A stretch of 61,037 bases of DNA, taken from NCBI RefSeq assembly GCF_000374165.1, contig NZ_KB893732.1, forward strand, positions 1 to 61,037, written 5' to 3'. The DNA is from Parafrankia elaeagni (GTDB lineage: Bacteria; Actinomycetota; Actinomycetes; Frankiales; Frankiaceae). The notes under the pieces are model-generated. The model saw only the letters and a program-made list of their open reading frames with translations, was not told where the DNA came from and searched no databases. A program made the position numbers and the translations under genes. This document shows positions 4,885 through 61,037 of the stretch, piece by piece (positions within the stretch are counted from its first letter, which is position 1; each line of letters starts with the position of its first letter).

Positions 4885-4921
4885 ACGTACTGCGGCGACG
4901 TACTGCGGTGACGTACTGCGG
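4885..4921. repeat. Three tandem copies of a 13-bp unit
   Basis: ACGTACTGCGG recurs at 4885-4895, 4898-4908 and 4911-4921, immediately after the stop codon of the Liv fusion and leading into the terminator hairpin. Confidence 0.85.
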
Positions 4922-47593: not shown

Positions 47594-49541
<1,948 letters not shown>

Positions 49542-49615: not shown

Positions 49616-51466
49616 CTAGCCCTCCTTGCGGGCGAGCACCCGGTAGGTGTTGGAGCGGCTCCCCCGCGCCAGCCACGCCCGGCTCAGGCCGTCGACGACC
49701 GCGGCCAGGACGAGCGGGGCGACACAGGCGAGCAGCAGCGGCACCCGCAGCAGGCGTCGACCCGGCCCGGCGCGGTGGGTGTCGAGCCACGGCTCGGGTT
49801 TCGGCGCCAGCTGCTGGACGAGCAGGCCAAGCGCCCCGGTGAGGTCGCCGGGGCGCTGCGCCGCGCCGAGCTCGACGACAATGGGCCGCAGGCCACGGTC
49901 CTCCAGCGCCGCGAGCAGGTTGTCGACGGGGATGAAGTGCAGCCGGCGCGGCACATCCCAGCCCGGCCAGTACCTGCCCAGCCGCCGGGCGGCCGGGCAG
50001 GACGGGTTCGGCAGCTCGATCAGCAGATGGCCGCCGGGGGCGAGCGCCTTCACCGCGCCGTCGAGCTCCTCGGACGGGTACCGGGCACGCTCCAGGTAGC
50101 CGAACATGCTGATCACGTCGTAGCGCCCGGCGAGCCGGTCGGCGACCTGCACGAGTTCGCCCTGGTAGGCGGCGTCCACCCAGCCCCGCGCGCGGGCCTC
50201 GTCGACCGAGTCGGTGATGTCGAGCCCGCCGAAGGCGGTCGCCGGCCAGTGGTGACGGGCGACGTTGCAGAAGTGCCCGAACCCGGTGCCGACGTCCAGC
50301 CAGGCTCGTGGGGTGGCGTAGGGACGCAGCAGCTCGGCGCGGGCCCGGTCGGCCGCCGCCTCCCGCGCGCGGGCATGCTCCGCGGCCTCGGCGGCGAACC
50401 CGTCCCGCCAGTCCCGCTCGTAGTAGTCCTGCCCGTCCGGGGTGATCGCCGGGTTGAGGAAGGTGTGCCCACACCGCCCGCAGGTGTCGAGCTGGAAGCT
50501 GCCGGGTTTGCCCATCGCCAGGTCCGGCGAACGCAGGCGGCTTGTCAGTTCCCCGAAGCCGCACCACGGGCATTCGCTGCTGGGCACCTCACGCAGGCGC
50601 CCGACGTGCCGGGCCCGGGCCCGGTACCAGGCGGCGGTCTCGTCGCGGCGCTGCCGCCGGGCCGCCTTGTGCGGGTCGGCGGGTATGCCGGCGGCCTTGG
50701 CCTCACGACCCGCGCGCACCGAGTGGATGACGAGCAGGAAGATGCCGAGGATCCGGACGATCGGACTACGGATCAGGTCACGAGGAGCCAACGGCACCCG
50801 GCCGGCGCAGACGAAGAACGGCTGGAACCAGAACAGCGCCATCGCCACGTAGGCCAGCTGCTGGCTGACCTGCGACCCGATCGCCGTCGCGATGTGCGGC
50901 GAGAACGGCATGTAGAGGCTGGCCGGGGTGCAGGCGTAGGCGCGCTGCTGCACCCGCACCCGCATCGCGGCGTCGTCCCGGGCGGCCCGCAGCCCCGGCA
51001 CCACCGCGAGGTCGGTGGCGGTCGGGGCGTAGCGCTTCAGCTGGGTGGCGATGTCGACCAGCTCGACCGGGCTGAAGCCGTCCAGGTGGGTGATCCCGGC
51101 CCGTTCCAGCAGGTCGCGGTGCACCAGGATGGCCTGGAAGGCGCCGCGGCCGGGCGCGGACCGGTCCGCCCGGTACGTGCGGGTGTCCACCATGCGGGCC
51201 ACGTCGAGGGCGCGTTCGACGGTGAGGTCGGCCGGTACCAGGTCCAGCACCAGCAGGCGCTCGCGGCGCGCGTGGTTGCTCGCCGCGCGCCGCGCCGCCT
51301 CGGGCAGCCGGACGCCCTCGGCGACCAGGAAGAGGTGCGCCGGGTCGACCGGCCGGCCGGAGGCGACGACCGTGTCGAGCCGGCGCAGCCGCCCCCGCAG
51401 CCGGATGCCGTTCGCGACGAGGCCCAGGCAGACGAGAACAGGAACCAGGAGCCACACGTCCCTCAT
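49616..51466 (-). CDS. Membrane-tethered methyltransferase with zinc ribbon
   Basis: This 616-residue protein is the last gene of the polyketide operon. Residues 1-290 begin with a membrane segment (WLLVPVLVCLGLVANGI), continue with a soluble domain I do not recognise, and contain two more hydrophobic stretches (AYVAMALFWFQPFFVCA; IVRILGIFLLVIHSV). Then comes a zinc ribbon (CPWCGFG ... CGRCGHTF, about 315-350), a class I SAM methyltransferase domain (WLDVGTGFGHFCNVARHHW; VISMFGYLERARYP; GGHLLIELPNP), and a C-terminal membrane hairpin (LLLACVAPLVLAAVVDGL). The ATG at 51466 follows GGGGGG; upstream in-frame sequence belongs to the glycosyltransferase gene. It likely methylates a membrane-bound product of the operon. 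Confidence 0.75.
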   Translation of the reverse strand: MRDVWLLVPVLVCLGLVANGIRLRGRLRRLDTVVASGRPVDPAHLFLVAEGVRLPEAARRAASNHARRERLLVLDLVPADLTVERALDVARMVDTRTYRADRSAPGRGAFQAILVHRDLLERAGITHLDGFSPVELVDIATQLKRYAPTATDLAVVPGLRAARDDAAMRVRVQQRAYACTPASLYMPFSPHIATAIGSQVSQQLAYVAMALFWFQPFFVCAGRVPLAPRDLIRSPIVRILGIFLLVIHSVRAGREAKAAGIPADPHKAARRQRRDETAAWYRARARHVGRLREVPSSECPWCGFGELTSRLRSPDLAMGKPGSFQLDTCGRCGHTFLNPAITPDGQDYYERDWRDGFAAEAAEHARAREAAADRARAELLRPYATPRAWLDVGTGFGHFCNVARHHWPATAFGGLDITDSVDEARARGWVDAAYQGELVQVADRLAGRYDVISMFGYLERARYPSEELDGAVKALAPGGHLLIELPNPSCPAARRLGRYWPGWDVPRRLHFIPVDNLLAALEDRGLRPIVVELGAAQRPGDLTGALGLLVQQLAPKPEPWLDTHRAGPGRRLLRVPLLLACVAPLVLAAVVDGLSRAWLARGSRSNTYRVLARKEG

Positions 51467-51477
51467 GCCCCCCGGCC

Positions 51478-52668
51478 CTACGGCAGCAGCTTCTCGATGT
51501 GGTGGGCGGCCGTGACGACTCCTCCCGCCGCGGTGAACTCGGCACGCAGCCGGCCGGCCGCGGCCGCGTACGACGGCTCGCCGAGCACGGTGCCGATCGC
51601 GGTGGCGAGCGTCGACGGCGTCGACCGCCCGAACCGCACCCGCAGGCCCGCCCCGGCCCGCACCACCTGCTCGCCGATGACCGGCTGATCGTCGCGGACG
51701 GGGGCGACCACAAGGGGAACACCCCGTGACAATGCCTCGCACACGGTGTTGTTGCCCGCATGGCAGACTACCGCGTCGAGCTGGTCCATCAGATCGACCT
51801 GCGGCACGAACGAGCGGACGAGCAGGTCGTCGGGCGCCTGCTCGGCAAGGTCGTCGAGCGGGCCCGGCGGCGCGACGACCACCGCCTGCACCTGGCCGGC
51901 CATCCCGGCCAGGGCCTCGGCCGCGGCGCGCACGAAGCGCCCGCCGGCGTCCCGCGTCACCGTTCCGAGGGAGACCAGAACGGTGCGCCGGCCGCTGTCG
52001 AGCCACTCCCAGGGGAAGGCCGGGGCCGGCCGGCGGATTCCCGCGGCGCAGCCGACGAACACCTGGTGGGAGGGATGGAACGAGCTGCGCAGCAGCGAGG
52101 GCACCGAGCAGACCACCGTCAGGTCCTCGGAGAAACGCAGGTCCAGCCGCTCCGCCCCGTCGTCGGGCACGCCGTGGGCGAGCTGGAACTCGCGCAGCCG
52201 GTCCGAGACCCAGTGTCCGATCCCGGCCAGCACCGCGTACGGATCATCGAACTCCGCCGAGGTGGTGGCCAGGGTCGCCCACCGGACCCCCGCCCGCCGC
52301 GCGGCCAGCGCGGCACCGATCGCCTGCTGGTCGGCGACGACGAGATCCGGGCGCCAGCGCTCGAGCACCTCGCCGACGTCCCGGGCCATCGAGGTGCCGA
52401 GCGGGAGGATGAACTCCTCCCACAGGAACTTCAGCGACGCGGGTCCCCGCAGCGGGCGGGACCGTGCCTCCAGGTCCGCCCGCTGCTCGGCGGTGATCTC
52501 GTCCGGCAGCGCGATGAGCGGCACGCCGGGCGGAACGAGCGGCCCGACCGCGCTCGCGTGACCGGCCAGCGCGACGTCGTGGCCGCGGGCGGCCAGCTCG
52601 CCCGCGATACCGACGGCCGGGTTCACGTGGCCGGTCAGCGGCGGCACCGCGAAGAGAATGCGCCCCAT
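51478..52668 (-). CDS. GT1-family glycosyltransferase (UGT/MGT type)
   Basis: This 396-residue GT-B enzyme has the acceptor-domain start MGRILFAVPPLTGHVNPAVG and the donor-domain block VRSFVPQVDLMDQLDAVVCH. The latter is followed by AGNNTVCEALSRGVPLVVAP, the nucleotide-sugar signature of macrolide- and lipid-modifying glycosyltransferases. The catalytic histidine near residue 15 is in LTGHVNP. It would add a sugar to the polyketide or lipid product of the operon. Spacing is tight: 24 bp after the hydrolase gene and 11 bp before the methyltransferase gene. TGGAGG lies upstream of the ATG. Confidence 0.9.
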   Translation of the reverse strand: MGRILFAVPPLTGHVNPAVGIAGELAARGHDVALAGHASAVGPLVPPGVPLIALPDEITAEQRADLEARSRPLRGPASLKFLWEEFILPLGTSMARDVGEVLERWRPDLVVADQQAIGAALAARRAGVRWATLATTSAEFDDPYAVLAGIGHWVSDRLREFQLAHGVPDDGAERLDLRFSEDLTVVCSVPSLLRSSFHPSHQVFVGCAAGIRRPAPAFPWEWLDSGRRTVLVSLGTVTRDAGGRFVRAAAEALAGMAGQVQAVVVAPPGPLDDLAEQAPDDLLVRSFVPQVDLMDQLDAVVCHAGNNTVCEALSRGVPLVVAPVRDDQPVIGEQVVRAGAGLRVRFGRSTPSTLATAIGTVLGEPSYAAAAGRLRAEFTAAGGVVTAAHHIEKLLP

Positions 52669-52692
52669 CGACTCAACTGCCTCCAGGCCGGG

Positions 52693-53625
52693 TCAGGCGT
52701 CCGACGGCGAGCCGGCCGCGGCCGTCGACAGCGAGGTGGTGCGGTGCTCGCCGTTCAGGTCGGGCGGCGGGATCATCTGCCGGACCCAGTCAGGCGTGTC
52801 GTAGCCGGCGCCGCGCACCTGGTGCCGGGGCATCGGCTGGTCACGACGCAGCAGCCACCACCGGAGCAGGTCCCGCAGGTAGTCGGCGGCCTCGCGCAGC
52901 ACCATGTGGGTGTGCTGCTCCAGAACCACCAGGGTGCAGTCGGGAACGAGCTCGGCGAGCCCCTCCGCCTGGTCGATGATGTCCGAGTTCGCCCCGTAGA
53001 CGGCGAGGACCGGCATCGGCAGCGCGGTGAGCGCCTCCCGCGAGAACGGCGGCGTCGCCAGCATGTCCTGCGCGATCGACGTCTCCTTCAGCAGCGCCTG
53101 CGCGGAGCGCGCGATCCGGGTGACGGCGCGGCCGGCGGTGTTCGCGAGCCACTCCTCGACCTCCTCGTCACTGACGGCGGCGAGGACCTGGGTCAGCGAC
53201 CGGGCCATCTCCTCCCCCAGTCCCTCGATCAGGAAGGGCGGCTCGACGAGGGTCAGGCTGGCGACCCGCTCCGGGTTCGCCAGGCCGAACGCGAGGGTCA
53301 GCGTGGCGCCGTAGCTGTTGCCGACGATGTGGACGGGCCGGTCGACACCTAGCGCGTCCAGCAGCCCGGCCAGGTCGGCCATCGAGTCGGCCATCGTGTA
53401 GCCGGACGGGGTCCGCTCGCTGCGGCCGTGCCCGCGCAGGTCGTAGCAGATGACCTCGCAGCCGGCGCCGGCCAGGCAGTTGCCCAGCGCGAAGTAGAAG
53501 CTGGAGATGTTGTCCATCACCATGCCGTGCACCATCACGACGACCGGCGAGTCCGGAGCGGCCCCGCCCTTCGGCTCCAGCCGCTGCACATGTAGACGAA
53601 CGCTGTTCGCGACGATCTCAGCCAC
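52693..53625 (-). CDS. Alpha/beta hydrolase in the polyketide operon
   Basis: This 310-residue hydrolase has VVVMVHGMVMDN, CYDLRGHGRSERT, the nucleophile elbow HIVGNSYGATLTLAFG, the acid region MPVLAVYGANSDI and the histidine in LEQHTHMVLREA. With no signal peptide it should be cytoplasmic. Coming directly after the ACP gene, it is a natural candidate for a discrete thioesterase that releases the finished chain from the carrier protein, as the synthase has no thioesterase domain of its own; hydrolase or acyltransferase roles on the product are alternatives. The GTG start has GGGAGAAGG upstream. Confidence 0.85.
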   Translation of the reverse strand: MAEIVANSVRLHVQRLEPKGGAAPDSPVVVMVHGMVMDNISSFYFALGNCLAGAGCEVICYDLRGHGRSERTPSGYTMADSMADLAGLLDALGVDRPVHIVGNSYGATLTLAFGLANPERVASLTLVEPPFLIEGLGEEMARSLTQVLAAVSDEEVEEWLANTAGRAVTRIARSAQALLKETSIAQDMLATPPFSREALTALPMPVLAVYGANSDIIDQAEGLAELVPDCTLVVLEQHTHMVLREAADYLRDLLRWWLLRRDQPMPRHQVRGAGYDTPDWVRQMIPPPDLNGEHRTTSLSTAAAGSPSDA

Positions 53626-53728
53626 GCGCCTTCTCCCTAGCTTCGTTCGGAGGTTTGCCCGCGCGGTCCGCTGGCGTCCCGCGCGCTCGACGTTCTCGTC
53701 GCCCCCCTGGTTGGTCCGTGGCGGCGCG

Positions 53729-54073
53729 CTACCGCGCGGCCACCTGGGGGGCGCTGTCCAGGCTGTCGACGATGAACGCGACGACCTGGCCGACCTTCAT
53801 GTTGATCACCTGATCGACGTCCATGTCGGCGAGGAAGCCGACGAAGTCGACGTGCTCGCCATAGGTCTCCCGGAGCCGGTCGGCGAAGGTGACGAACTCG
53901 ATGCTCTCCAGCTCGAGGTCCTCGTTGAACGAGGTGTCCATCTCGATCGACATGTCGACGATGTACTCCTCGCCGATCACGTCACGCAGGATCGCCGCCA
54001 CCTCGGAAAGCACTCTGGCCGCGCGGTCGGTCGGGTCCACGCTCACGGTGGCGGTCGACTGGTCGGTGGTCAT
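53729..54073 (-). CDS. Discrete acyl carrier protein
   Basis: This 114-residue acyl carrier protein contains the phosphopantetheine attachment motif as FNEDLELESIEFVTFADRL, where the serine of LES replaces the usual LDS, followed by the recognition helix II. The start codon overlaps the synthase stop codon (ATGA), so the two are translationally coupled. Because the KS-AT-DH synthase shows no carrier domain of its own, this protein and the carrier domain of the upstream ACP-KR protein are the likely chain carriers. Confidence 0.88.
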   Translation of the reverse strand: MTTDQSTATVSVDPTDRAARVLSEVAAILRDVIGEEYIVDMSIEMDTSFNEDLELESIEFVTFADRLRETYGEHVDFVGFLADMDVDQVINMKVGQVVAFIVDSLDSAPQVAAR

Positions 54074-57000
54074 CGCAGCGTCTGCTCCTTGGTCTGATGG
54101 GTTGCGCTGACAGGTCCGGTCCGTGGCGAGGTCCAGGCCACGACATAGTTTCCGAGATAGCCGCCGGCGGCCGCGGCCAGCCGGTCGGCAGGCTCCGGCT
54201 CGGGCCGGGGCCGGCCGGTCGTGTCCATCGTGCGCAGGGCCACCCAGCATTCCCGGACAGGCTCGGACGGACGTTCCGCGGGGGTGCCCGGCCGACCGGT
54301 CTGCGGGAGACCGGTCTCCCGCAGACCGGTCTCCCGCGCAGGGTCCGGCCCGTCGCCTGCCACGGCTGCCACGGCTGCCACGGCTGCCACGGCGACGGGA
54401 ACCAGCAGCGGAGCCGGCAGGCCGGGGCTCGCGCCCGGGTCGCCGACGGGCTGGACCACGGCGCCGCCCGGCCCACGGGTCACCGCGGCGGGCACAGGCT
54501 CGCCGCCCTGCACCGGCCGGCCGACCACGAATCGCCGGGGATCGCCGACTGGTCCGGACCCGTCCGCCTGCGACGCCGCCTGCTTCGCCGCGACGAAGCG
54601 AGCGAACCACACAGCGCGGCTGTCCGGATCGCCGTCGGCCAGCTCGTCGAGCAGCCGCAGCTCGGGCACGGTGAGGACAGCCGCCTCCGCGTCCCGCTCC
54701 CGCCGCTGGACCCGGTCCAGGCCGATCCCGACACCGCCGGGGGTGTCCTCGACGAGAGCCACGGCGATCTCCGGGCGGTGCGCGACACTCACCACGGGCG
54801 GGCGCAGCGCCGGCAGGCCGGACCGGTCCGGCACCCGGTCGACGACCGGGCTCCCCGACGCCGCGTCCGCCAGGCCGACCTCGATCGGCCACAGCTCGCC
54901 GGCGCCACCCGCCCACCAGTGCCGCCGCACGGCGTCCTTGCCGGCGATCCGCCCGAGCAGCCACGAGCGGGCGGCCAGCGGGTTGAGGCGGGCCAGGCGC
55001 CCGCGCTCGGCGGCGTCCAGGTAGTGGCGCAGTGACAGCTCGCGTGACGCCGGGTCCCGCCAGTGCTCGGTCACGACGACCCAGCCGTCCGCCGTGGACC
55101 GGCCCTGCGTGTTGACCTGCGGTGCCAGCGCCATCGACCACAGGACGTCGTCCTCGGTGAAACGCCGGTCGGTCCAGCCGCTCAGGTGCGACCACAGCCG
55201 GCCGGCCTCGTCGCGCAGCTCCATGTCCGCCGTCGCGGTGCGCTCGGTGACGTCACGGATGCGGCCCAGGTACGACAGCCGTGCTCCCGTCCGCGGTGGC
55301 GGGCCGAAGAAGCGGATCGAGGCGACCGACGCGGGGAAGAGCAGCCAGTCCGACGGAAGGTACTGCATGCCCCAGTAGCCGAAGAGCTGACCGGCGTTGT
55401 CCAGCAGCGCCCCGCTGGCCTCGGTGACCCGCAGCCAGCCGCGCAGCCCGGTCGGCGCCATTCCGTCGACCGACTCGACGCCCTGGTAGCCGGGCCCGTG
55501 GAACAGGAGCCGGTCGTCGTAGATCGCCCGGCCGGTGTGCGGCGCCGTGGACTCCCCGGGGATCACCACCTCCCCGGCGGTTCCCGGGCAGGGGACGAGA
55601 CCGGTGGACACGTCCGTGGTCTCCGGCGGCGCAGGGTGGGCCGCGGCGAAGACGACGGTCGCCCGGGTGTAGCCGACGACGTCCACCCGGATCTCGTCCG
55701 GGCCGAGCGGCATGCAGGTGATGTCCACCTGTACCGGCGGCTCGATCGCCAGCCAGCGGGTGGCGCGGACGTCCCGGACCTCGGTGATCACCAGGCCGGG
55801 CCGCAGCGCCGACGCCTCGGCCATCATCATCTCGAGGACGCCGGTCAGGGGCACGACGGGGAAGAGGTCGGACGCGTCGGACCAGCCCGGCGGCTGCCGG
55901 TAGAAGCAGTGGTCGATGACCTCGGGCATGGTCGCCAGGGAGAGCTCGCGGCGCACCGTGATGCGACCGTCCGGCCCGGTCCGCCGCGCTCCCGCCGGCA
56001 CCGGCGCGGACGCCGGCACCGCGGACACCGGAACCGCCGCGGGCACCTGAGCCGAGCCCACGTCCACATCGGGACGGGGCCGCAGCGCGGCGGACAGGTC
56101 GGGGGCGTCGGGGCCGAGCCGGACCAGCGGGGTGCCGAGGCGCAGGCGCACCGCCCGATCGGGCCGCCCGGCACGGCCGGGCCGGGCCGCCGGAGCGGCG
56201 AGGCCGGGGCGGGTGCGGCACGGCAGGAGGTCCATCCGCGGCGCGGCGCCCTCGGCCCACAGCGCGACCGCGACCCGGCGCAGCTGGTCCAGCCCCGACC
56301 GTTTCGTGGTGTTGGTGACCAGCGAGGCGTGCTCGTCGCCCGCCCCGCTCAGGGTGTCGTCGACGAAACCGGCGACGCTGCCCATCCCGATCTGGACGAA
56401 CACCCGGACGCCCGTGTCGTGCAGGGCTCGTGCCAGCTCCCGGAAGCGCACCGGCTCCAGCAGGTGCCGGACGGCCAGCTCCCGGATCTCGGCGTGCCCG
56501 GACGGATAGGGAGCCACCGTGGTAGCGGACCACACCGGGACCCGGGCACTGCCGAGCGGGGTGTTGTAGAGCCCCTCCCGCAGCCGGTCCAGATGCGGGC
56601 GCAGGAACGGAGAGTGGAAGCCGGAGCGGAACGGCAGAACCTGCCCGATCACCCCACGCGCCCGCAGCCGCGCCAGGGCGGTCTCGATGCTCTCCACCCG
56701 CCCGCAGATGATCGACTGGTGCGGGCAGTTGTCGTGCGAGATCACGATGTCCGCCAGGTCGGCGATGGCCTCGGCGGCGACATCCGCGCCGCAGCCGAGC
56801 GCGCCGAACACGACGCCCGGCACCTCGATCGAGGACGGATCGAAGGCCTGGATGAACCCGTCCGCGTACTCCTCGTCGATCAGGCCGGCGGCGAGCATCG
56901 CGTTCCACTCACCCACGCTGTGCCCGGCGACCACGTCGGGGGCCACACCGAGTCGGTGCAGGGCGACGTCGAGGACCCGACCGACCTGCACGCTCGCCAC

Positions 57001-58899
57001 GCCGTGATGGCCCAGGTCGGTGGTGTCGCCCAGCTCCGGCCGGGGCAGCCCGAAGTGGTCGCAGATGTCGTCGATCCGCGGGGAGAACTTGTCCTCCAGC
57101 CCGCAGAACAGGAAGGCCAGCCGGGGAACGGTGTTCTCGTCCCGGCGGTCGAGCAGGGGCGCCGGGACGAACCAGAGGTCGTTCCGGCCCCGCCACGGTG
57201 TGCCACGGGCCGCCACCGTGCGGGCCAGCGCGAGCCGGCGCGCGGTGGGGGCCACCAGCGCCAGCCGGACCGGTCCGCCGCCGGGCGCCGTCGCCGCGTC
57301 GTCGCGCTCGAGCAGCTCGGCGTCCGGCACCGCGAGCTGGGCGACGATGTCCGCCGCGGACGCGCCGGCGAACAGCAGCACCCGCTCGGCCGTGGGGTCC
57401 GCCGCGCGTGCGACCACGCGGGCGACGTCCCGAGCGGCACCGGGGCCCAGGGGCTCGACAGCGCCGACCCGATCGGCGTCGGCGCACTCCTCCAGGACGA
57501 CGTGGGCGTTCACCCCGCCGAAGCCGAAGGCGTTCACCCCGGCCCGCCGCGGCGCGGGGCCCGTCCGCTCCCAGGGCGTCGCCTCCCGGACGGGGGCGAA
57601 CCGGCTGCCTTCGAACAGCGGGTGCGGCTCGTCGCAGTGCAGCGTCGGCGGCAGGGTCCGGTGGTGCAGTGCCAGCGCGGCCTTGATCAGACCGGCCATG
57701 CCGGCGGCGGGCATCGCGTGCCCGATCATCGACTTCACCGAGCCGAGGCCGACCCGGCCGTTGTCGACGTCGTCGCCGAAGACCTTCGTCAGGGTGGCGA
57801 GCTCCGCGCCGTCACCGGCCGGGGTCGCGGTGCCGTGCGCCTCGATCAGCCCCACCGCACCGGGTGCGGCCGGGTCGAGGCCGGCGTCCGCCCAGGCCCG
57901 CTCGACGGCGAGGATCTGCCCGGACGAGGCCGGTGCCATCAGGCTCGCGGTACGCCCGTCGCTGGACGAGCTGGCGCCGCGCAGCACCGCGTAGATCCGG
58001 TCGCCGTTCGCACGGGCGTCCGCGAGCCGGCGCAGCACGATCATGCCGATGCCCTCGCCCATCAGGATGCCGTCGGCCCGGCGGTCGAACGGCCGGATCC
58101 GCTGGCTCGGCGAGAGGGCGCGCAGCAGCGTGAACAGACTCCAGAAGGAGACCTCGTGCACGATGTGCACACCGCCGACGATCATCGCGCCGGCCCGGCC
58201 GCTCGCCAGCTCCCGCATCGCCGTCTCCACGGCGATCAGGGACGAGGCGCAGGCCGCGTCGATCGTGTAGGCCGGCCCGTGCAGGTCGAGGCGGTTCGCG
58301 ATCCGCGACGCGGCCAGGTTGGGCACCAGGCCGATGGACGCCTCGGGCCGCTGCGGGCCGAGCTTCGCCAGGAAGGCGTCGACGACCTCGTCCACGGCGG
58401 TGTCCGCGACTCCGGGCAGGACCTCGCGCAGCGTGGTCGCCAGCTGATGGGACGTCCGGACCCGCTGTTCCAGCCGGGCCACTCCGGGGCCGACGTAGCC
58501 ACCGCGGCCGACGACGACGCCGACCCGGCCGCGGTCACCGAGGGCCTCCGGCCCGCCGGCGTCGTCCATCGCCTCGGCGGCGAGCCGCAGCGCGAGGAGC
58601 TGGTCCGGCTCGGCCCAGTCGACCGAGACCGGGACGATGCCGAACCGGGCCGGGTCGAAGGTGGCGAGGTCGTCGACGAACCCGCCGCGGCGGCAGTAGA
58701 AGCCCGCCCCGTCGGGGCGCCGCTCGGCGGTGGGATCGGCGGCGAAGTACTCGTCGAGATCCCAGCGCCCCGCCGGGACGTCCCGGATCGCGTCGACGCC
58801 GCCGGCGATGTTGCGCCAGTAGGTGTCCAGGTCGCCGGCGCCCGGGAACAGCGCCGACATCCCGACTACAGCGATCTCCTGAGCGATCTCCTGGGCCAT
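54070..58899 (-). CDS. PUFA-synthase-like polyketide synthase, KS-AT-DH-PPTase
   Basis: This 1609-residue synthase has a ketosynthase domain (1-470) with active-site Cys217 in DAACASS and His355 (EAHGTATPAGD) and His394 (KSMIGHAMPAAG). The SSSDGRTASLMAP stretch is typical of PUFA-synthase (Pfa) and enediyne-type synthases. The acyltransferase (about 590-900) has Ser661 in GHSVGEW and FHSPFL. A hot-dog dehydratase double domain (about 1010-1310) has the likely histidine in VIDHCFYRQPPG and the HGPGYQGVES and DNAGQLFGYW pieces. A C-terminal phosphopantetheinyl transferase-like domain (about 1360-1480) follows, then a Pro/Thr-rich tail. No ACP or KR is inside. The ATG at 58899 lies 4 bp after the upstream gene. 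Confidence 0.88.
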   Translation of the reverse strand: MAQEIAQEIAVVGMSALFPGAGDLDTYWRNIAGGVDAIRDVPAGRWDLDEYFAADPTAERRPDGAGFYCRRGGFVDDLATFDPARFGIVPVSVDWAEPDQLLALRLAAEAMDDAGGPEALGDRGRVGVVVGRGGYVGPGVARLEQRVRTSHQLATTLREVLPGVADTAVDEVVDAFLAKLGPQRPEASIGLVPNLAASRIANRLDLHGPAYTIDAACASSLIAVETAMRELASGRAGAMIVGGVHIVHEVSFWSLFTLLRALSPSQRIRPFDRRADGILMGEGIGMIVLRRLADARANGDRIYAVLRGASSSSDGRTASLMAPASSGQILAVERAWADAGLDPAAPGAVGLIEAHGTATPAGDGAELATLTKVFGDDVDNGRVGLGSVKSMIGHAMPAAGMAGLIKAALALHHRTLPPTLHCDEPHPLFEGSRFAPVREATPWERTGPAPRRAGVNAFGFGGVNAHVVLEECADADRVGAVEPLGPGAARDVARVVARAADPTAERVLLFAGASAADIVAQLAVPDAELLERDDAATAPGGGPVRLALVAPTARRLALARTVAARGTPWRGRNDLWFVPAPLLDRRDENTVPRLAFLFCGLEDKFSPRIDDICDHFGLPRPELGDTTDLGHHGVASVQVGRVLDVALHRLGVAPDVVAGHSVGEWNAMLAAGLIDEEYADGFIQAFDPSSIEVPGVVFGALGCGADVAAEAIADLADIVISHDNCPHQSIICGRVESIETALARLRARGVIGQVLPFRSGFHSPFLRPHLDRLREGLYNTPLGSARVPVWSATTVAPYPSGHAEIRELAVRHLLEPVRFRELARALHDTGVRVFVQIGMGSVAGFVDDTLSGAGDEHASLVTNTTKRSGLDQLRRVAVALWAEGAAPRMDLLPCRTRPGLAAPAARPGRAGRPDRAVRLRLGTPLVRLGPDAPDLSAALRPRPDVDVGSAQVPAAVPVSAVPASAPVPAGARRTGPDGRITVRRELSLATMPEVIDHCFYRQPPGWSDASDLFPVVPLTGVLEMMMAEASALRPGLVITEVRDVRATRWLAIEPPVQVDITCMPLGPDEIRVDVVGYTRATVVFAAAHPAPPETTDVSTGLVPCPGTAGEVVIPGESTAPHTGRAIYDDRLLFHGPGYQGVESVDGMAPTGLRGWLRVTEASGALLDNAGQLFGYWGMQYLPSDWLLFPASVASIRFFGPPPRTGARLSYLGRIRDVTERTATADMELRDEAGRLWSHLSGWTDRRFTEDDVLWSMALAPQVNTQGRSTADGWVVVTEHWRDPASRELSLRHYLDAAERGRLARLNPLAARSWLLGRIAGKDAVRRHWWAGGAGELWPIEVGLADAASGSPVVDRVPDRSGLPALRPPVVSVAHRPEIAVALVEDTPGGVGIGLDRVQRRERDAEAAVLTVPELRLLDELADGDPDSRAVWFARFVAAKQAASQADGSGPVGDPRRFVVGRPVQGGEPVPAAVTRGPGGAVVQPVGDPGASPGLPAPLLVPVAVAAVAAVAAVAGDGPDPARETGLRETGLPQTGRPGTPAERPSEPVRECWVALRTMDTTGRPRPEPEPADRLAAAAGGYLGNYVVAWTSPRTGPVSATHQTKEQTLR
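54301..54324. repeat. 24-bp palindrome and repeats in the synthase tail
   Basis: Half-site CTGCGGGAGACC is followed directly by its reverse complement, and AGACCGGTCTCCCGC then repeats 15 bp on. With four 9-bp CACGGCTGC-type units at 54361-54396 it encodes the low-complexity RETGLRETGLPQTGRPG and VAAVAAVAAVA tail of the synthase. Confidence 0.8.
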
Positions 58900-58903
58900 C
58901 GGT

Positions 58904-61037
58904 TCAGCCTTCGAACGACTCGGCGTCGGCGCACATGTAGACCACCTGGGCGGGCGCGCCCGGGACCGGCTCACGCAGCTCGCGCAGCAGCGCGGCGACC
59001 CCCTCGTCCGGGTCGATCAGACCGATGCCGCGCCGGGCGTACTCCCGCGCCAGTTCCTCGGAGACCATGCCCCGGCCCGCGTCGGCGCCGGAGTCACCCC
59101 AGGGCCCCCAGTCGACGCTGACCACACGGCCGGTGCGCCGGGTCGCCAGACTGTGGGCGAAGACGTCGAGCGCGTCGTTGGCCGCCGCGTAGTCGACCTG
59201 GCCGCGGTTGCCGAAGACCCCGGCGACGCTGCCGAAGAGGACTACGAAGCCCACATCGGGCCGCAGCGCGCCAAGCAACGCGCGCGCTCCGTCCACCTTC
59301 GTGCGGAACACCCGGTCGAACGACTCCGTCGTCTTGTTCTTCAGCAGACGGTCCTCGAGAATGCCGGCGCCGTGCACGACACCGTCCAGCCGGCCGTGGC
59401 GCTCGTACACCTCGGCGACCACCGCGGCGAGGGCGGCACCGTCCCGCACGTCGACAGCGTGGTAGCGCACCGAGGCCGCCGCCTCGCCCAGCGCGGCCAG
59501 GTTCGCGCGGATCTCCCGCTCGGCCAGAATCCGCGTGACGCGCTTCTCGATCTCCGCCGGGCGGCGCACACCGGAGGCGATCAGAGCCCGGCGCAACGCC
59601 GGCGGGTCAGCCGCACCGGCGGTCTCTGCGCCCTCCGGCCCGTCCGGGACGGGGGTGCGCCCGATCAGCTCCACCGCGCAGCCAGTGGCCCGCGCCAGCG
59701 CCAGCGCCGTCCGTGCGGTGATTCCGCGCGCGCCGCCGGTGAGCAGCACGACACCCGAGGTGTCCAGCCCCGTCGGGCCCGCGGTCGGCGCGCCCGACGG
59801 CGCGAGGTCCGCCGGGCGCGGCGTCGGCGTGATCCGACTGCCGTCCCGGTGGCCGACGACGACCGGCGCCGCCGCGTCGAACATCTCCGCCAGCAGCCGC
59901 TCGGCGATCCGCCGCGGCGCGGCCTTGGGATGGACGTCGACCAGCCGCACCCGGGTGGCGGGGAGTTCCTGGGCCAGCGTCCGCACCAGCCCGGCCATCC
60001 CGACGGCCGCCGACCCGCCGGCCGGTGTCGTGTCCACCGCCTCGGCACCGCGGCCGAGGTCACCACCCAGCCCGGTCACGACGACCAGCCGCCGGGCGCC
60101 GGCGAGCGCGGCGGTGCGCAGGGGCGCGAAGGCGGCCGGCAGGCCGGCACCCGGGCCCGCCACCCCTTCCGCCGAGGCGACCCAGAACAGCCCGTCGGCG
60201 CCGGCGTCCGACCCGAGAACGGGATCGAGCTCCGCGCTGTCGGCCGACACGATCCGGACGTGGGCTCCGGCCTGCTCCAACAGCGTCGACAGCGCCAGGC
60301 CGATACCGAGCCCGCCCTCGACCACGGTGAACCGCGCGCCGGCCAGCGGCACCGCCGTGCCAGCCGCGACCAGCTCGTCCCAGGACGGCAGCGCGGGCAG
60401 CTCGACGTGGTCCACCACGAACCGGCGCAGCGGGACCCGGGACTGCGGGCCCACCGCGCCCACGGCTGCGACGGCTGCGACGGCCGGCACGGCGTCAGCA
60501 GCCGGAACGATGCCGGCAGCCGGCACCGCACCGGCACCGGCACCGGCACGGGCCGCGAAGGTCGGGTCCGTCGCGCCGCGCGGGGTGGACAGCACTCCCC
60601 AGCTCTCCGGCGCCGACGGCGCCTGGAGCGCGGTGGCCGCATTCCGGGTCCGGGGGCTGTCCAGCACAGCGGTGCCGGCCCGTCCGATGCTCGGCGCCGG
60701 CCCCACGGAGGGCTCGGGAAGGTGCGCAGTCGGCAGCACCGCCGTGGCGGACGCGGACGCCCGCGCCGGCACCAGGACGCGGGACCCGGCATCCGCGGGC
60801 ACCCGGCCACCGCCGGTGCCCTGCTCCGGCAGGTCGTACGACCCGGGTCGAGGAGCTGGGCCGGACCCGCCCCCGGCTGCCCCGCCACGGCCACCGGCGG
60901 AACCGTCGCCGGAACCGTCGCCGGGCGCGGGCTGGGAGCTGTGCTCGACGATCCAGGTCGCGATCCCCCGCACCGTCTTCACCGCCGCCAACTCCTCGAC
61001 CACCGACTCGTCCAGCTCGGACGCCCCGCCGCCCGCA
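58904..61037 (-). CDS. PUFA-synthase-like ACP-KR protein (5' end outside window)
   Basis: The frame is open to the window edge and the visible part is about 711 residues. Its first 30 residues (ELDESVVEELAAVKTVRGIA and on) match the last helices of a Pfa-type carrier domain, so at least one ACP lies outside the window and the GTG at 61003 is not the true start. A long Pro/Gly/Ala linker follows. A degenerate Rossmann half comes next, then the ketoreductase (TGGARGITARTALALARATG; FGSVAGVFGNRGQVDYAAAN with Ser, Tyr and Asn). The long insert IEKRVTRILAEREIRANLAA is typical of Pfa-type ketoreductases. It precedes the KS-AT-DH synthase by 4 bp and supplies its missing ACP and KR steps. Confidence 0.87.
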   Translation of the reverse strand, partial: AGGGASELDESVVEELAAVKTVRGIATWIVEHSSQPAPGDGSGDGSAGGRGGAAGGGSGPAPRPGSYDLPEQGTGGGRVPADAGSRVLVPARASASATAVLPTAHLPEPSVGPAPSIGRAGTAVLDSPRTRNAATALQAPSAPESWGVLSTPRGATDPTFAARAGAGAGAVPAAGIVPAADAVPAVAAVAAVGAVGPQSRVPLRRFVVDHVELPALPSWDELVAAGTAVPLAGARFTVVEGGLGIGLALSTLLEQAGAHVRIVSADSAELDPVLGSDAGADGLFWVASAEGVAGPGAGLPAAFAPLRTAALAGARRLVVVTGLGGDLGRGAEAVDTTPAGGSAAVGMAGLVRTLAQELPATRVRLVDVHPKAAPRRIAERLLAEMFDAAAPVVVGHRDGSRITPTPRPADLAPSGAPTAGPTGLDTSGVVLLTGGARGITARTALALARATGCAVELIGRTPVPDGPEGAETAGAADPPALRRALIASGVRRPAEIEKRVTRILAEREIRANLAALGEAAASVRYHAVDVRDGAALAAVVAEVYERHGRLDGVVHGAGILEDRLLKNKTTESFDRVFRTKVDGARALLGALRPDVGFVVLFGSVAGVFGNRGQVDYAAANDALDVFAHSLATRRTGRVVSVDWGPWGDSGADAGRGMVSEELAREYARRGIGLIDPDEGVAALLRELREPVPGAPAQVVYMCADAESFEG

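Follow-up and report, generated by a model that had tools for sequence, protein, structure and literature searches.

A conserved operon of Frankiaceae encoding a two-subunit iterative type I synthase with a putative O-methylated glycolipid product

RESULTS

Layout of the operon. The stretch of DNA analyzed here (“the window,” 61,037 nucleotides) is the entire contig C63 (NZ_KB893732.1) of Parafrankia elaeagni, the genome of which comprises 7.59 Mb in 135 contigs and is 98.1% complete, with 5.5% contamination. The closest named relative in the scan was Parafrankia colletiae, at 92% for the best synthase segment. On the minus strand, six genes run from position 61036 to 49616, with matches to the families of ketoreductases (KR), ketosynthases (KS), acyltransferases (AT), dehydratases (DH), acyl carrier proteins (ACP), alpha/beta hydrolases, family 1 glycosyltransferases (GT1), and methyltransferases. 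The gene set was read as (ER-KS-AT-ACPn-KR)-(KS-AT-DH-PPTase)-ACP-hydrolase-GT1-methyltransferase, with ER for enoyl reductase and PPTase for phosphopantetheinyl transferase. Four bases separate the stop of the KR gene from the start of the KS gene, and the start of the discrete ACP gene overlaps the stop of the KS-AT-DH gene as ATGA. The coordinates and family matches bear out the tight minus-strand operon described in an initial annotation made from the sequence alone, which had also recorded the ATGA overlap before the discrete ACP. The features are as follows.

58904..61036, minus strand: megasynthase subunit 1, C-terminal part (end of ACP, linker, KR), cut by the contig end
Contig C92, L031:6098-12287: front half of subunit 1, continuing the ER-KS-AT-ACPn-KR architecture
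54070..58899, minus strand: megasynthase subunit 2, KS-AT-DH (PS-DH)-degraded PPTase
54073..54912, minus strand: PPTase-derived C-terminal region of subunit 2, GIDxE changed to GIGLD and KEA to KQA, no Pfam ACPS match
53729..54073, minus strand: discrete ACP, carrier Ser in LELESIEF
52693..53625, minus strand: alpha/beta hydrolase, Ser in GNSYG (102), Asp in GANSD (211), His in HTHM (238)
51478..52668, minus strand: GT1 (macrolide-type) glycosyltransferase
49616..51466, minus strand: methyltransferase with an N-terminal domain of about 250 amino acids, a CxxC/CxxC zinc-ribbon-like segment, Methyltransf_23, and a C-terminal hydrophobic stretch
47703..49541, plus strand: thiC, the convergent neighbor that ends the operon and is not a member of it

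Subunit 1. An intact subunit 1 is present in P. colletiae (2,930 amino acids, locus L010) and in Frankia sp. strain EI5c (2,860 amino acids, L009), where an N-terminal region is followed by KS, AT, ACP (two in L010, one in L009), and KR; among the relatives translating without stops, one to three ACP motifs were counted. The N-terminal region matches NMO-type or PfaD-type enoyl reductases in L009, L115, and L117, in two stretches each. That of L010 gave no Pfam match at an E value of 0.01 and aligns with its counterpart in L009, one stretch being 72% identical. An ER domain was assigned to subunit 1 of the window because these relatives match NMO.

The front half of subunit 1 on C92 is 91.5% identical to L010, and C92 and C63 overlap exactly by 95 bases at their ends. 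Because of this overlap and of two identical 300-base stretches in the ACP region of L010, the break between both contigs is most simply explained by a collapse of the ACP repeat during assembly. The protein initially annotated as “ACP-KR” turned out to be the C-terminal piece of a megasynthase of about 2,900 amino acids, cut inside the tandem ACPs. The description of the synthase as split is correct insofar as two megasynthase subunits exist, but the ACP-KR piece itself is a product of the contig end. Beyond position 61037, where the initial annotation had proposed to look for further ACPs, an ER, and a second KS or chain length factor (CLF), C92 supplied the region assigned as a fused ER, a KS-AT pair, and a further ACP region but no CLF.

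Subunit 2. The KS of subunit 2 (KS2, as opposed to KS1 of subunit 1) possesses in the window the active-site Cys and the two His residues, and its AT keeps the motif GHSxGE in the form GHSVGE; the second AT motif, SGFHSP, is taken by us to be of the malonyl type. Pfam ACPS gave no match to the PPTase region in the window, L009, or L010 at an E value of 0.1, and the Pfam PPTase matches in L011 and L012 were below the cut-off. They were clear in other relatives (12 of the 15 members of a mixed alignment at an E value of 0.01), most of which carry the motifs GID and KEA. The Asp of GID, a metal-site residue of the PPTase, is gone in all six Parafrankia copies read (the window, L009, L010, L011, L012, and L076), and KEA is changed to KQA in four of these, being retained in L011 and L076. 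Judged from these residues, the PPTase domain is probably dead in these Parafrankia, and a trans-acting PPTase is therefore probably required for activation of the ACPs. The PPTase that had been assigned to the end of this protein is present as a region, and clearly so in relatives, but is degraded in the window.

Accessory genes. Ser, Asp, and His of the hydrolase fall in the expected order. The glycosyltransferase matches TIGR01426 (macrolide-type) below the cut-off of this model, and OleI is among its NCBIfam matches, far under the cut-off. The methyltransferase carries the motif DVGTGFG and two CxxC pairs, CPWC at 299 and CGRC at 329, in agreement with the zinc ribbon seen initially. Hydropathy revealed hydrophobic stretches at its N-terminal end, in the middle, and at its C-terminal end, so that a location at the membrane is plausible from the predicted protein. 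Its N-terminal domain had only chance-level matches in Pfam and the PDB, also with a profile (best E value, 0.13). A paralogue with the same N-terminal domain, 42 to 48% identical, occurs at L025:9640-11475, L026:9922-11775, L027:8578-10467, and L028:9875-11824 and is a second, unstudied member of this methyltransferase family; in L025, it adjoins genes for YkuD and an M48-like peptidase, with the genes for trigger factor and clp a few kilobases off.

Class of the synthase. A KS tree was calculated with the “quick” method and Shimodaira-Hasegawa-like approximate likelihood ratio (SH-aLRT) support from 69 rows chosen from the fetched loci, with long branches flagged, few named Pfa references, and no HglE sequence. 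KS1 (18 rows) and KS2 (17 rows) formed separate clades with an SH-aLRT value of 100 each, away from the modular rows. The approximately unbiased (AU) test, which included nine modular-type rows and left out three A. vitis rows of the same clade, rejected a grouping of KS1 with the modular rows (p-AU of 1.7e-37) and also one of KS2 (p-AU of 6.2e-5). A placement of the KS among the modular polyketide synthases (PKS), which the initial annotation had named as a result that would refute it, can thus be set aside for both, and a modular PKS is ruled out. A grouping of KS1 with the Beijerinckia and Methylosinus KSs of Type P was not rejected (P of 0.68); KS1 and KS2 together were weakly rejected (0.033). 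Among the Frankiaceae rows, the branching of KS1 agreed with that of KS2.

Compared to PDB structures, KS1 scored higher with trans-AT and modular KSs than with the KS-CLF chain 6riw, and KS2 aligned to 6riw unbroken, the other top matches being broken or partial. TIGR02813 (PfaA) was the top NCBIfam match of both synthase proteins of the window, at 204.5 and 481 bits with a cut-off of 1010.1 bits, and the part on C92 (630.6 bits) and the counterpart in genome G007 (638.8 bits) were likewise below this cut-off. The tree, the AU tests, and PfaA as the top match agree with the Pfa-type iterative class assigned initially, and the assignment of the synthase to the iterative Pfa or secondary-lipid type rather than to modular PKSs is supported by these comparisons of predicted proteins. 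The features given by Shulse and Allen for secondary-lipid synthases are present, namely, KS, ACP, and KR with AT, DH, ER, and PPTase and a KS outside the modular PKS clade, as are the tandem ACPs that are usual but not required in such synthases (two motifs in L010).

Distribution and gene content. The synthase marker was a query derived from the DH and PPTase regions, and a search for the gene order gave an identical tally for the 36 Frankiaceae genomes. The marker was found in 33 of them, the remainder being two small genomes (G018 and G020, the latter 63% complete) and the nifH-bearing G030. With nifH over the cut-off in 26 of the 36 genomes, 25 contained both, 8 the synthase alone (G019 and G032 to G038), 1 nifH alone (G030), and 2 neither.

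For 17 of the 33 carriers, one region each was fetched and its gene content counted. All 17 contained KS2, DH, hydrolase, glycosyltransferase, and discrete ACP, and 14 contained the methyltransferase, with two copies in L071. As for the other three regions, L077 stops at the contig end, and L069 and L074 run from the glycosyltransferase gene to thiC. The class search covered a sample of 197 genomes and yielded 27 carriers, 13 of them outside the Frankiaceae; 12 of these 13 were fetched (G105 was left out). They contained ACP and hydrolase (12 each), glycosyltransferase and KS2 (11 each), and methyltransferase (9). For the regions inside and outside the family taken together, this means 28 of 29 with the glycosyltransferase and 23 of 29 with the methyltransferase; in the 29 short loci, searched with a full-length ACP query, ACP and hydrolase were found in every case. 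Four outside loci carry 3, 4, 4, and 5 methyltransferase copies, one copy being cut by the locus end, and the N-terminal domain of the methyltransferase was seen in just 2 of the 12 outside loci.

All six genes are annotated, in order, on two named plasmids, those of Streptomyces sp. strains NBC_00984 and NBC_01243, with KS1 65% and KS2 62% identical to those described here. The NBC_00984 methyltransferase has 355 amino acids, a match to the N-terminal domain is lacking in both strains, and the NBC_00984 PPTase, unlike that of the window, retains a Pfam match above the cut-off. Both plasmids (L115 and L116) are large and linear and have insertion sequence (IS) element genes near the six-gene set, which suggests horizontal movement.

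Because the gene order recurs inside and outside the Frankiaceae, the data support one pathway for ACP, hydrolase, glycosyltransferase, and methyltransferase, as had been proposed from the window. The gene set had also been considered unusual; it is instead widespread in the Frankiaceae and patchy in other actinobacteria.

A diverged second set of synthase, ACP, hydrolase, and glycosyltransferase genes exists in four fetched Frankiaceae genomes (L111 to L114). The ACP was found in all four and a methyltransferase match in none of them, and the PPTase region appears short or degraded.

DISCUSSION

Proposed pathway and product. The operon is real and conserved. Its synthase is of a known kind, to which a module for glycosylation and methylation has been added. 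On balance, we consider it probable, with some reserve, that the two subunits form an iterative type I fatty acid/polyketide synthase and that the operon as a whole makes an O-methylated glycolipid, which would probably belong to the cell envelope. Both subunits would jointly and iteratively extend a chain from malonyl units, and KR, DH, and ER would leave a long, mostly reduced acyl chain. This chain would be handed over to the discrete ACP, the ACPs in Parafrankia probably being activated by another PPTase, and would then be freed by the hydrolase. The glycosyltransferase may add a sugar to a retained hydroxyl group or to the carboxyl group, and the methyltransferase would cap the product. 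Because some related loci hold 3 to 5 methyltransferase copies, the methylation would most likely occur at sugar hydroxyls; several methyltransferases would suit several hydroxyl groups of a sugar better than a single carboxyl group. We infer the methylated-glycolipid product from the content, order, and conservation of the genes and from the classes of the domains. No product of such an operon was found in the literature searched, the coverage of which did not extend to most subscription papers.

Several points weigh against such a product. These data do not allow a prediction of how long the chain is, how far it is reduced, or which sugar is attached. The hydrolase might serve for editing instead. 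The glycosyltransferase could act on something else because GT1 enzymes of its subfamily also act in macrolide self-immunity, OleI being among its matches far under the cut-off. A relative of the methyltransferase was not found in the genomes of L069 and L074 (G028 and G031, drafts less than 90% complete), which makes methylation nonessential. Of the 12 outside loci searched, 3 yielded no methyltransferase match, L100 no KS2, and L110 no glycosyltransferase. The membrane siting of the methyltransferase, which was initially described as membrane anchored, is weak because the hydropathy threshold used is also passed by subunit 2 and by the shorter methyltransferase of Streptomyces, which lacks the N-terminal domain. 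Glycosyltransferase and hydrolase do not pass it. The hydrophobic stretches of that description are there, but anchoring is only plausible.

A more specific version of the glycolipid hypothesis should be regarded as tentative. The product may be an undescribed, near-universal envelope glycolipid of the Frankiaceae, in which an Ars-like two-subunit synthase would supply the long acyl chain and the methylated sugar of the head group would be completed at the membrane. Both nitrogen fixers and nonfixers would have retained it, it would have been exchanged among other actinobacteria, and up to five methyltransferases might tune the sugar cap.

Comparison to known systems. The closest characterized machinery is the Ars or Type P synthase of the Azotobacter/Beijerinckia type, which makes C22 to C26 chains. 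The main text of PMC3098273 assigns Azotobacter and Beijerinckia to Type P. According to this text, the synthase makes the C22-26 acyl chains found in phenolic lipids of Azotobacter, and phenolic lipids have not been reported from Beijerinckia. PMC4824345 characterizes ArsA as a synthase of C23 to C25 fatty acids and ArsD as a PPTase. The sequence comparison used Beijerinckia (Pfam and tblastn), and Azotobacter was likened by its description. Similar to the operon, Beijerinckia encodes a protein of the order NMO(two stretches)-KS-AT-ACP2-KR (KS 52% and ER 40% identical), a DH-PPTase protein, and a downstream glycosyltransferase gene. The DH-PPTase protein is separate there, whereas it is fused here behind KS and AT, so that the operon differs from Type P/Ars in that DH-PPTase is preceded by an AT and by a further KS whose active-site residues are intact. 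Discrete ACP, hydrolase, and methyltransferase are also extra in the operon, and the type III PKS genes that belong to Type P/Ars operons do not occur in the six-gene unit. In L100 (8918-11830), the second subunit gave AT and DH matches and no KS2 match, close to the Type P arrangement.

Type M was reported for all three finished Frankia genomes, with Frankia alni ACN14a, CcI3, EAN1pec, Actinosynnema, Renibacterium, and S. avermitilis as members, and the words glycosyltransferase and methyltransferase are absent from the main text of this report (PMC3098273). As far as that text goes, Type M resembles the operon by its presence in every finished Frankia genome, as would be expected of the operon. 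Genomes G005 and G007 possess, besides the operon, a stronger PfaA-like cluster, which is by score the counterpart of a cluster on contig C50 of the window's genome; each contains thus at least two candidate clusters, and G005 has two further places with Pfa-type KSs of more than 500 bits. Type M may therefore be this second, stronger PfaA-like cluster rather than the operon. In the family of G126, the DH was found in 8 of 341 genomes, all of one genus; this family is presumably unlike that of Renibacterium.

The C50 cluster (L030:601-18248) has the stronger PfaA score and comprises an AMP-ligase, a flavin adenine dinucleotide (FAD) enzyme, an acyl-CoA dehydrogenase, a hydrolase, a KS-AT-ACP2-KR-DH protein, a FabA-type protein, and a PfaD-like protein.

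Type F (hgl) is similar insofar as an iterative Pfa-type synthase feeds a glycolipid, provided that the product proposed here is correct. The main text of PMC3098273 describes hglC as KS-CLF-AT and Type F as lacking DH/I domains. The operon has a DH and no CLF and, by this comparison, does not belong to the heterocyst glycolipid synthases.

Other explanations. A soluble bioactive polyketide glycoside, such as an antibiotic, for which glycosyltransferase and methyltransferase would be tailoring or self-protection enzymes, is rather unlikely. Such a function would fit the similarity of the glycosyltransferase to macrolide-type enzymes, the two Streptomyces plasmids with IS elements beside the gene set, and the LuxR-type regulators upstream in the genome of the window. 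However, vertical inheritance is suggested by the occurrence of the marker in 33 of the 36 Frankiaceae genomes and by the agreement of the KS1 and KS2 branching among the Frankiaceae rows, and the annotation of the two plasmids shows neither a transporter nor a resistance gene interspersed with the six genes.

Still less probable is a Frankia counterpart of the heterocyst glycolipids, that is, an oxygen-barrier lipid of the vesicle envelope. The analogy comes from the main text of PMC3098273, in which Pfa-type synthases are the source of heterocyst glycolipids (Type F) and of the cyst lipids of Azotobacter (Type P). Of the 26 Frankiaceae genomes in which nifH exceeds the cut-off, 25 contain the operon. 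Nevertheless, 8 of the 33 carriers have no nifH over the cut-off, and G030 has nifH but no operon. Since presence does not track nitrogenase, a purely vesicle-specific role is disfavored, and the oxygen barrier was set aside as the leading explanation. In F. alni, we assume from an unverified estimate that the operon lies at FRAAL15xx and the polyketide synthase FRAAL4072 thus elsewhere. The main text of the nodule proteome of F. alni lists FRAAL4072 as more abundant in nodules and names no FRAAL15xx protein (PMC8951365), which is weak evidence against a nodule-specific role. Moreover, PMC5745019 reports a hopanoid vesicle envelope.

An enediyne or polyunsaturated fatty acid (PUFA) synthase cluster is extremely improbable, despite PfaA being the top NCBIfam match of both synthase proteins, because the PfaA cut-off was not reached, the ER is fused at the N terminus, neither subunit contains a second KS-like (CLF) stretch or a FabA-type DH, and the neighbors found, which in the initial annotation would have counted as a refutation if they showed a known enediyne or PUFA cluster, are thiC and two LuxR-type regulators. 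Subunit 2, with KS-AT-DH-PPTase, one KS stretch, and no FabA match, is not the PfaC companion (KS-CLF-DH2). An enediyne PKSE is a single KS-AT-ACP-KR-DH-PPTase chain accompanied by an enediyne cassette; the operon has two chains, a fused ER, and two KSs, and no search was made for the cassette.

If the methylated-glycolipid product is correct, the lipid made by a locus that 33 of 36 Frankiaceae genomes retain is one for which no description was found, and the gene set predicts a glycosylated, variably methylated head group that can be searched for by mass spectrometry. To the phenolic and polyunsaturated lipids of the Ars/Pfa family, it would add an operon dedicated to a glycolipid, with enzymes of its own for release, glycosylation, and methylation. 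The role of the lipid could be approached by a clean comparison between carriers that have nifH and those that lack it, and between carriers with none to several methyltransferases.

Upstream region. On C92, two LuxR-type regulator genes are located 5' of the operon. About 2.1 kb between a LuxR-type regulator gene and the operon (L031:3979-6098) contain no called gene. From position 4888 onward, this stretch aligns with P. colletiae at about 95%, and it is possibly a long leader or regulatory region.

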